From Sphingomonas arenae (GTDB taxonomy: Bacteria; Pseudomonadota; Alphaproteobacteria; Sphingomonadales; Sphingomonadaceae): 64,000 nucleotides of DNA. Below the pieces are notes generated by a model, which had not been told where the DNA came from, made no database searches, and saw nothing but the letters and a program-made list of their open reading frames with translations. The stretch lies in assembly GCF_016924655.1 (NCBI RefSeq), contig NZ_JAFFJU010000002.1, forward strand, positions 558,001 to 622,000. The letters run 5' to 3'. This document shows, piece after piece, positions 36,829-39,594 of the stretch; positions within the stretch are counted from its first letter, which is position 1; each line of letters starts with the position of its first letter. Made by a program: the position numbers and the translations under genes.

Positions 36829-37269
36829 TCAGGCGCGAGGCGCACCCCGACCTTCGCGAAGCTCGTCCCTGATCTCGCGGAGCAGGAGGATGTCCTCGGG
36901 CGGAGCCTCTTCTGCCGGACGCCGCCCCATCGCCCGGTTGGCGGCCTTGACCAGCAGGAAGATCACGAACGCGAGGATCAGGAACTTGATGACAGCCGTC
37001 AGGAAGGCGCCGTAACCCAGGATTGGGACGCCGGCCTTCTTGAGCGCGGCATAGTCGGTGAGGGAGCCCGTGTAACCGGCGGGCACCTCGCCCAATCGGA
37101 CGAAGTAGGACGAGAAATCGAGACCGCCGAGAACTTGACCTAGCACAGGCATGATCATGTCGTCCGTCAGCGAGCTGACGATCGCGCCGAATGCCGCACC
37201 TATGATCACGGCGACCGCCAGATCGATGACGTTGCCGCGGGCGACGAAGGTCCGGAATTCCTTGAGCAT
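36829..37269 (-). CDS. mscL: Large-conductance mechanosensitive channel
   Basis: A 146-residue membrane channel starting at ATG 37269 with GGGGAGG upstream. The N-terminus (MLKEFRTFVARGNVIDLAVAVIIG, in two parts) is the conserved gate helix; a second membrane helix is near 88-110; the C-terminal RREIRDELRE helix forms the cytoplasmic bundle. It releases solutes on osmotic downshock. Confidence 0.96.
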   Translation of the reverse strand: MLKEFRTFVARGNVIDLAVAVIIGAAFGAIVSSLTDDMIMPVLGQVLGGLDFSSYFVRLGEVPAGYTGSLTDYAALKKAGVPILGYGAFLTAVIKFLILAFVIFLLVKAANRAMGRRPAEEAPPEDILLLREIRDELREGRGAPRA

Positions 37270-37326
37270 GAGCCTCCCCATTCTGACCGCGCGAGAACAA
37301 CGCAACGGCTCGCGTGAGAGGTGAAG

Positions 37327-39594
37327 CTAACCTTCGATCCGGCTGAAGTCAGCTACCCGATGTACCGCATCGCGGAAGCGGGCGAGCAGGTTGAGGCGGC
37401 GGGCGCGGTCTTCCTTGTTGTCGGCGTTAACCGTGACCTTATCGAAGAAGGCGTCGATCGGCTGGCGGAGGGAGGCGAGCGCGGCCATTGCTGAACGGAA
37501 GTCCTCCTGCTCGATCGCGGCTTGGGCGTGTGGCTCGGCCTGGTCGAGCGCGGCGACCAGCGCACGTTCTTCCTCAGGAGCATCGGCCGGTGCGGCCGAA
37601 CCCTGCGCCATCTGGGCAATAGCCTGCGCCAGCTCCGGCGCTTCGTCGACCAGCACCAGAGGGTCTTCCTCGCCGGTCTGCGGCATCGCCTGCTCGCCGG
37701 GATCGCTCATGACGCGAGGCAGCGACCAGTTCTCCTTCTTGAGAATGTTTGCGGCGCGCTTGTAGCCGGCGAGGAGGTTGGCGCCGTCACCTGTGTTCAA
37801 GAATATCTGGAGCGCTTCCGCTCTACGCCGAACGCGCCAAAGGTCACCATCAAGGCGGCTATCGAGATTGGTCGACGCTTGGACCACGTCATAGCGGATA
37901 CCCTCATCACGCATCTGAACACCCAACCGATCGTGAAGAAAGTCTTCGACCTTCAATCCAGGACCGACAGTTCCGTCAGTGTGCCATGCCCTAGCAATTT
38001 CGCTGACGAGAGCTCGCACGTTCGCAGCCTCGACTAGCCTCAGGTACGCGAGGCCAGCCCGACGCAGGGCGAAAGGGTCTTTCGAGCCAGTAGGCAGAAG
38101 GCCCTCACGGAAGAATCCGAAAAGAGTATCTAACTTATCCGCCAGCGCCACCGCTGCCGTTACCGGCGCGGTGGGCACCTCGTCGCCTTGCCCGACCGGC
38201 TTGTAATGATCGCGGATGGCGTCCGCGACGGCCTTGGGCTCGCCCTGCGCCTCGGCGAGGTAGCCGCCGATGATGCCTTGCAGCTCCGGGAACTCGCCGA
38301 CCATGCCGGTGACGAGGTCAGCCTTGGCGAAGCGGGCAGCGCGTTCGGCTTGGCTGGCTACGTGCGCCACTTCCTCGTCATTCCCGCGAAGGCGGGGGTC
38401 CATCTCGGAACTGTCCGCCTGCACGACGGTAGCGAGATGGACCCCCGCCTTCGCGGGGGTGACGGTGATTATGCGTTGCTCCACGAGCCATCGCGCCAGC
38501 TTCGCTACGCGCTCGACCTTGTCCGCAACCGTGCCGAGCTTCTCGTGGAACACGATCTGCCCGAGCTTCTTCGCTTGGCTTTCCAGCGGAACCTTAAGGT
38601 CCTGCTCCCAGAAGAACCGCGCATCGCTGAGCCGCGCGGCCAGCACGCGGCGGTTACCCTCGACGATCGCGGCGCCGCCGTCGCTTGCCTCGATATTCGC
38701 CGTGCAGACGAACGCAGGCGCCAGCGCGCCGCTCGCGTCGGTGCAGGCAAAATACTTCTGGTTGGTGCGCATGGTGAGCACGATAACCTCGCGCGGCACA
38801 TCGAGGTAATCGGGGTCGAACCGGCCGAGCAGCGGCACCGGCCATTCGGTCAGCCCGGCATTCTCCGCCACCAGCCCCTCGTCCTCGACCAGCGCCAACC
38901 CCTCGGCCTCAGCCGCCGCCCGCGCCCCGTCACGGATGATTGCCGCGCGTTCGTCCTGATCGACGATGACGCGGCAGGCCTTCAGCTTCTCGGCATAGTC
39001 GCTCGCCCCGCCGAGCGTGATCGGCCCTGGATGATGGAAGCGATGCCCGACGGTCGTCGCGCCGCTGCCAATGCCGTCCACCTCGACCGGTACGATCTCC
39101 TCGCCCAGCAGCGCGACGATTCCGTGCAGCGGCCGCACCCAGCGGAGGCTCGCCGTGCTGGCCGACGCCGCGCCCCAGCGCATCGACTTGGGCCAGGGAA
39201 AGCCGCGCACGATCCGCTCGATCGCCGGCCCGAGCACCGCCGCCGTCGCCTGCCCCGGCTTGTCGACCACTGCGAACAGCACGCCGTCGCGCTCGACCAG
39301 CTGCTCCCGGCTGAGCCCGGTCTTGCGCAGGAAACCCTCCAGCGCCTGCGGCGGCGCGGAGGCACGCGGGCCCTTGATTTCCTCGGACTGCGCCGCCGTC
39401 GCCAGGGGCAGACCGCGCGCGATCAGCGCAAGCCGCCGCGGCGTTGCGAACGTCTCGATCGCCTCCGCTGCGAGCCCGACCTTGTCCAGCTCCTCCGCGA
39501 ACAGTCGCGCGAGGTCGTTGCGGGCCTTGGCCTGCATGCGCGCGGGGATCTCCTCGGAGAGGAGTTCGAGGAGGAAGTCAGCGGTGCCGCTCAC
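37327..39594 (-). CDS. glyS: Glycyl-tRNA synthetase beta subunit, with in-frame repeat insertion
   Basis: A 755-residue subunit (E. coli 689) starting at GTG 39594, which overlaps the glyQ stop as GTGA. The N-terminus [15 protein letters not shown], then [16 protein letters not shown] and [11 protein letters not shown] are family marks. Residues 378-406 are encoded exactly by an 87-bp palindromic element (38377-38463) and interrupt the region between [12 protein letters not shown] and [12 protein letters not shown]. The insert is in frame and without stops, probably in a surface loop, so the enzyme should remain functional. It aminoacylates tRNA-Gly with GlyQ. Confidence 0.96.
38377..38463. 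repeat. 87-bp palindromic repeat inserted in glyS
   Basis: Arms of 31 bp (38377-38407 and 38433-38463) match as inverted repeats with two mismatches; the loop is 25 bp. The core reads CCGCGAAGGCGGGGGTCCAT. In the glyS frame it is translated as [10 protein letters not shown]...[10 protein letters not shown], a phrase typical of dispersed palindromic repeats in alphaproteobacteria. A related 87-bp element lies at 49590-49676. Confidence 0.92.

Follow-up and report, generated by a model that had tools for sequence, protein, structure and literature searches.

A CGTC-type REP dimer in frame in glyS of Sphingomonas arenae, in a loop where other sphingomonads carry unrelated repeats

Results

The glyS locus and its in-frame segment

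The window, that is the whole stretch of 64,000 nucleotides of Sphingomonas arenae DNA analysed here, carries on its minus strand glyS, the gene for the beta subunit (GlyS) of glycine--tRNA ligase (GlyRS). The segment under study lies within this gene and is a copy of a repetitive element, a CGTC-tagged heterodimer of repetitive extragenic palindromes (REPs), which falls in a loop between two helices of the protein. In other sphingomonads (used here for the NCBI families Sphingomonadaceae, Sphingobiaceae, Sphingopyxidaceae, Rhizorhabdaceae and Erythrobacteraceae, to which the named rows with an insert belong) the same loop holds REPs and other repeats, in at least five clusters that do not match one another, and in many close relatives it is empty. 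The features are as follows.

37327..39594, minus strand: glyS, glycine--tRNA ligase beta subunit (NCBIfam TIGR00211)
38376..38464, no strand assigned: CGTC-type REP head-to-head dimer, in frame in glyS (inverted repeat, genome copies, covariation)
38376..38402, plus strand: first REP unit, with CGTC tag, 8-bp stem with two G-T pairs, 4-nt loop and CCA tail
38403..38437, no strand assigned: 35-nt spacer between the REP units, with TCTC-like ends and a variable centre
38438..38464, minus strand: second REP unit, in opposite orientation, its stem type differing from the first (heterodimer; sequence, arm comparison)

The frame matches TIGR00211 (glyS) at 688.8 bits, against a cut-off of 300, and its probable start is the GTG at 39594-39592, which overlaps the glyQ stop. 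The first-pass annotation had described an 87-bp near-perfect palindrome at 38377..38463. The inverted repeat is real, but with both tags it is one base longer at each end and measures 89 bp, with arms of 40 nt each (38376-38415 and 38425-38464) that are 88% complementary across a 9-nt gap; none of the other eight inverted repeats listed for 37200-39400 is as long. As had been proposed, the minus strand through 38376-38464 reads in frame with glyS and without a stop. It encodes residues 377-405 of the protein as we number it (P0001), or 378-406 when the GTG at 39594-39592 is counted as residue 1. The AlphaFold model agrees with the loop position suggested earlier: the insert lies between two helices at low confidence, the helix after it begins at residue 405, and the remaining fold is confident.

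The stop-free reading of the insert in itself says little, because 88-bp control windows taken from the flanks have even more open frames (3.8 of six) than the 26 long copies of the element in this genome (3.15 of six on average); an element adapted to protein coding is thus not supported. Compared with RNA families, the segment gave sub-threshold matches only, the best of them to a microRNA family, with 50.6 bits where the gathering score is 268, and these we take as chance resemblance to a strong hairpin.

Two REPs facing each other make up the element

A search of the genome itself (2,756,351 bases, 5 contigs) produced 59 match rows, and from these 33 places were read, more than chance would provide. 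The match covers 83-90 bp at 26 of these places, with a length of 88 bp in 14 of them, and 30-41 bp at the other seven. For a comparison of arms we used the 19 copies in which both arms align free of gaps (38 arms), omitting the other 14 places. In the typical arm a CGTC tag precedes an 8-bp stem that encloses a 4-nt loop, and CCA forms the tail. The tag is CGTC in 34 of the 38 arms, with TGTC, GGTC, AGTC and CGTT once each; the eight stem positions are paired in 35 to 38 of the 38 arms, G-T included; and CCA follows the stem in both arms of the glyS copy and in most of the arms listed. At the two variable stem positions the bases pair inside their own arm in 35/38 and 38/38 arms (G-T included), using several pair types, and the letters at stem positions 6 and 7 match across the arms in only 3/19 and 7/19 copies, respectively. 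Covariation thus acts within arms and not between them, and therefore the conserved structure is the small hairpin inside each arm, two of which, facing each other, yield the long palindrome. The single long palindrome with which the first-pass annotation had worked is ruled out as the conserved unit by the covariation across these 19 dimers. Furthermore, stem types are unlike between the arms of 18 of the 19 dimers, where random pairing expects about 75% (permutation p 0.015).

By its tag, stem and loop size, CCA tail and dimeric arrangement, the element is classed, on sequence traits, in the CGTC REP superfamily. This superfamily occurs mostly in Alphaproteobacteria, and its members have been equated with Neisseria dRS3 and with Rickettsia RPE-4 and RPE-6 (Di Nocera et al. 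2013, PMC3733652); the earlier comparison with in-gene palindromes of Rickettsia is borne out in this respect, through that paper and not by sequence. According to the paper, CGTC REPs have a CGTC (or TGTC/CCTC) tag, a stem of 8-9 bp, a loop of 4-5 nt and a short unpaired tail, mostly CCA, they are mostly head-to-head dimers, some of them in genes, and no dedicated transposase is reported there. Judged by stem and loop length the nearest family would be CGTC-1, which counts Neisseria dRS3 and Rickettsia RPE-6 among its members (PMC3733652) and which shares with the glyS element the CGTC tag, 8-bp stem, 4-nt loop, CCA tail, head-to-head dimers and in-gene copies. In CGTC-1, however, A-T is near-invariable in the first two stem positions and homodimers predominate, with exceptions named (PMC3733652), whereas here A-T forms the first pair in 37/38 arms but T-A the second in 18/38, and all but one of the 19 dimers are heterodimers. 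Because these two traits are not shared, we file the element under the superfamily and not under CGTC-1.

The GTAG REPs mobilised by REP-associated tyrosine transposases (RAYTs), and REPINs (PMC3116915, PMC2817692), are likewise non-autonomous hairpin repeats and often paired, but the tag of the glyS element is CGTC and its own genome gave no match to PF01797, a search that was positive in 5 of 14 control genomes and did not extend to other transposase families.

We placed copies in genes by long open frames of coding-like composition and by NCBIfam matches, with no gene caller. Five of the 33 copies lie within frames that have a family name, or form the end of one; the remaining 28 are not shown to lie in identified genes. 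Besides glyS, copies sit inside an error-prone DNA polymerase (L043; L and G numbers are our handles for loci and genomes) and inside a biotin-carboxylase-type protein (L037, presumably the one with the short name PccA), whose best NCBIfam match, at 578.6 bits, is under its cut-off of 597. A half copy lies in fmt (L061), and the dimer at L050 1501-1584 provides the last codons and the stop of the ribD reading frame. The placement in a housekeeping gene, on which the first-pass annotation had remarked, is thus confirmed for glyS but is not unique to it.

The same loop in relatives

The segment had been proposed to be an insertion, and the aligned GlyS of relatives agrees with this: it is absent from 26 of the first 29 loci that were read. 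The exceptions, at the same place, are 7 extra residues in G036, an unrelated repeat in G004 and a shorter CGTC REP in G013. That the segment might be ancestral protein sequence that merely looks repetitive, carried by all relatives in divergent form, is a reading to which we give practically no weight; the 33 places in the genome with similar DNA and the 26 relatives without the segment rule it out.

Across the genus, GlyS was matched in 63 of 71 genomes, with loop inserts in six (G000, G004, G013, G069, G085 and G092) and the seven extra residues in G036; in the rest a single match spans the loop site, except in G026, where the match stops before it, and G090, where the frame is broken. The search of named genomes took the best 80 of 575 related stretches. 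The GlyS alignment comprises 119 rows, 116 of them distinct once the doubles L073, L075 and L136 are dropped. Extra residues at the loop number 15 or more in 37 rows (36 distinct), 4-14 in five, and fewer or none in 77, so that inserts are found at the same loop in 36 of the 116 distinct loci of this biased sample. A scan of the 119 rows found 31 inverted repeats: 21 at the main loop (20 distinct), seven at a second one, around residue 640, and three elsewhere. The second loop is, in the S. arenae protein, also one of low confidence.

37642..37716, minus strand: second low-confidence GlyS loop, P0001 residues 626-650 (coordinates converted from residue numbers)

For this second loop of the S. 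arenae copy, the scan gave no inverted repeat. Among the 16 second loops that were printed, several show the same kinds of repeat by eye, and in some proteins both loops are filled.

To group the inserted DNA we used single linkage on DNA matches with E 1e-4 or better over at least 22 nt, with 18 of 40 DnaE2 and biotin-carboxylase stretches, those caught by patterns, included. The 40 GlyS inserts and remnants fall into groups of 16 (the CGTC REPs), 9, 7, 2 and 1, plus five singletons; in the group that has L118 as its sole GlyS insert, the links run through loops of DnaE2 and biotin carboxylase. The inserts of this one loop hence form at least five DNA clusters without mutual match. The REP of L130 recurs at 40 or more places in its genome (40 scored of 114 candidates) and that of L117 at nine further places in its own, and for the remaining groups further copies were seen only among the loci fetched, with 0 to 15 for each insert.

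Other loops with the same pattern

DnaE2 and biotin-carboxylase stretches each found a match in 70 of the 71 genomes of the genus. For each gene 20 stretches were fetched, chosen largely for a long match with some short ones for comparison, and read by eye; repeat-like inserts of several kinds occupy 16/20 of the biotin-carboxylase loops (the S. arenae one included) and at least 12/20 of the DnaE2 loops. Recurrent loop filling is not special to GlyS, because the loops of these two proteins fill too. The biotin-carboxylase loop (L178-L192, L197) follows a GRL..Y.P stretch and takes up many repeat kinds in different species of one genus, among them TRRRGDAE..SPRLR and VIARSEATRQSS..GLLRSARND types. 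The loop of the error-prone polymerase DnaE2 (L199-L209) likewise shows several kinds, and one DnaE2 match, G009:C1:1041014-1041286, has an internal TGA.

Probable gain, loss and refilling of the GlyS loop

After removal of the loop we built a quick tree of GlyS from 104 rows, with Shimodaira-Hasegawa-like approximate likelihood ratio test (SH-aLRT) support only, leaving out L067, L073, two fragments shorter than 450 residues and 11 distant outgroup rows. Rows with and without an insert are scattered among one another on it: at least 25 changes of state are needed when L121 is scored as uninserted and at least 26 when it is scored as inserted, 17 of the latter forced by starred, that is well-supported, branches. 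Close pairs of unlike state include L066/L011 and L064/L072. We consider it likely that the inserts are insertions which survive in permissive loops, and that these loops are refilled repeatedly; that they are near-neutral is what we infer. Palindromic repeats would insert widely, and most in-gene insertions would be purged. The survivors would be in-frame insertions in the few loops that tolerate 25-50 extra residues, kept as near-neutral passengers whose peptide would have no function of its own. With time they would drift, be invaded again or be partly deleted, so that the same loop would be filled over and over.

Several observations weigh against this account. The share of inserted loci comes from a search whose query itself held the insert and from loci some of which were fetched for split matches, and the strict inverted-repeat scan passes only 21 rows at this loop, the other inserts being called from length and, in most cases, also from DNA matches to other inserts. 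The sequence L/V-A-x-x-A/V-E/D stands just after the insert in 36/36 distinct inserts and in 4/5 shorter extensions, but in 0/77 uninserted rows, and this shared L-A-x-x-A-E could mean one old insertion. The inserted rows L095, L078, L080, L118 and L137 have near-basal positions within the ingroup. Lastly, in the two bins that precede the loop, third-position divergence between L111 and L108 reaches 0.56 and 0.60, compared with 0.16-0.44 elsewhere (bins -200 to +50), possibly as recombination would give.

These points lend some weight to a single ancestral REP insertion, followed by replacement of one element by another and by losses through short-tract recombination with uninserted alleles, a history that we regard as possible though unlikely. 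It would accord with the presence of L-A-x-x-A-E after the inserts of every cluster and in no uninserted row, with the inserted basal rows, and with a T after the I/V pair, found in 17/36 inserted loops and 2/46 of the other loops caught by the pattern. An uninserted loop type, VPNCDP, is also seen by eye in several genera. Stubs of other repeats point in the same direction: L098 has AAGCCCTCT, resembling the start of the repeats in L093 and L137, to the left of its REP, and L078, L079 and L115 have GTCACCCC-type stubs to the left of a complete REP. Such stubs beside complete repeats also suggest repeated visits to the loop. Against one old insertion, uninserted species have K-G-A-D-P-D like many other Alphaproteobacteria, which a deletion would not restore, and the inserts begin in different registers within the loop. 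Moreover, third-position divergence near the loop, compared in 11 pairs (nine inserted/uninserted and two same-state controls), is not raised beside it in eight of the nine inserted/uninserted pairs, L111/L108 being the exception. Long-tract recombination, which gives no signal in these eight pairs, is thus rejected as a general cause of gain and loss; short tracts remain compatible. As for the shared residues, L/V-A-x-x-A/V-E/D could be a shared response to the lengthening of the helix or could reflect common descent; under repeated near-neutral insertion, the next helix would be lengthened by about one turn, which would account for it.

Is the loop chosen by its DNA? Enzymes of the IS200/IS605 insertion sequences prefer a short target, and the mobilising machinery could prefer loop DNA such as the I-V codons ATCGTC, which contain CGTC. 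Indeed, AT[AC]GTCAC at the I-V codons opens 10/36 inserted loops, and in L009, L082, L097 and L129 the REP itself starts there. Yet repeats of other clusters occupy the same loop, the biotin-carboxylase and DnaE2 loops are filled too, the genome lacks a PF01797 match, and the flanks of the 33 copies share no target by eye (no statistics were made), so that we hold targeted insertion to be improbable. A benefit of the inserts, by which an mRNA hairpin or the added peptide would tune GlyRS production, folding or activity, appears slightly more improbable still. The three inserts that were folded are predicted to form stable RNA hairpins (-86.7, -92.8 and -73.0 kcal/mol over 142 nt, with no shuffle control), and the same loops are occupied repeatedly; however, the inserted sequences are unrelated and their absence is scattered among sister species.

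Relation to known in-gene repeats

In-gene CGTC REPs are themselves known: those named in PMC3733652 include copies in DnaE2 and in tRNA synthetases of X. oryzae, E. litoralis and S. alaskensis. They are likewise found in housekeeping or repair genes, and the synthetases named there may include GlyS. The same paper remarks on unlike REPs at about the same recB site in two Xanthomonas species. The present case differs in that at least five unmatched clusters occupy a single loop, in many genera, and that other loops behave similarly. Beyond the recB remark, we found no account in the literature sampled of repeats recurring in fixed loops; peptide strings led to nothing there, a weak negative because papers seldom print them. 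What is new, beyond what we found in print, is that in many genera unrelated repeats fill fixed loops. The palindromic elements of Rickettsia also lengthen conserved proteins in frame, by tens of residues, and in one tested case the enzyme was active: a guanylate kinase with a palindromic insert had a changed substrate affinity, and the effect might be neutral or slightly detrimental (PMC2229807). Unlike these, the elements described here belong to GC-rich sphingomonads and come in several repeat clusters in one loop, a comparison made through the papers and not by sequence.

It thus seems that selfish DNA comes to rest repeatedly in certain loops of essential proteins. A stronger form of this, which we think rather unlikely, is that a few loops of conserved enzymes (GlyS about 372-404 and 626-650, biotin carboxylase, DnaE2) are docking places, for GlyS across many genera of sphingomonads, where unrelated palindromic repeats arrive, are overwritten and are lost, through a preference at the DNA level or a useful hairpin or peptide; if true, conserved proteins would have, at one constant place, a segment built from repeats that changes quickly. 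Until now in-gene REPs were recorded individually, and loops shared by unrelated repeats are a natural insertion experiment, one that reveals where essential proteins take 25-50 new residues and that illustrates repeat DNA as a source of protein segments. The many gains and losses may serve to study the movement of repeats that lack a known transposase. The finding also gives a warning, in that such loops of sphingomonad proteins may be recent repeat DNA and not conserved structure.

tRNA-like pieces within inserts

In L107 (2736-2764), L117 (2610-2646) and L130 (2616-2644) a piece resembling the 3' end of a tRNA gene lies between the host flank and the REP. Each piece matches a tRNA of its own genome: tRNA-Asn for L107 (97% over 29 nt, E 6e-7), tRNA-Met for L117 (92% over 37 nt, E 2e-7) and, weakly, tRNA-Met for L130 (86% over 29 nt, E 0.005). 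The inserted DNA is therefore not all repeat. The matching loci are L174 for tRNA-Asn and L170 and L177 for tRNA-Met, L177 only at E 0.005; as donor loci they were rejected, with no REP in the 150-190 bases printed after them. The record of L130 is titled Arthrobacter sp. TPD3018, yet its GlyS groups with Sphingomonas on the tree, and the label is probably wrong.
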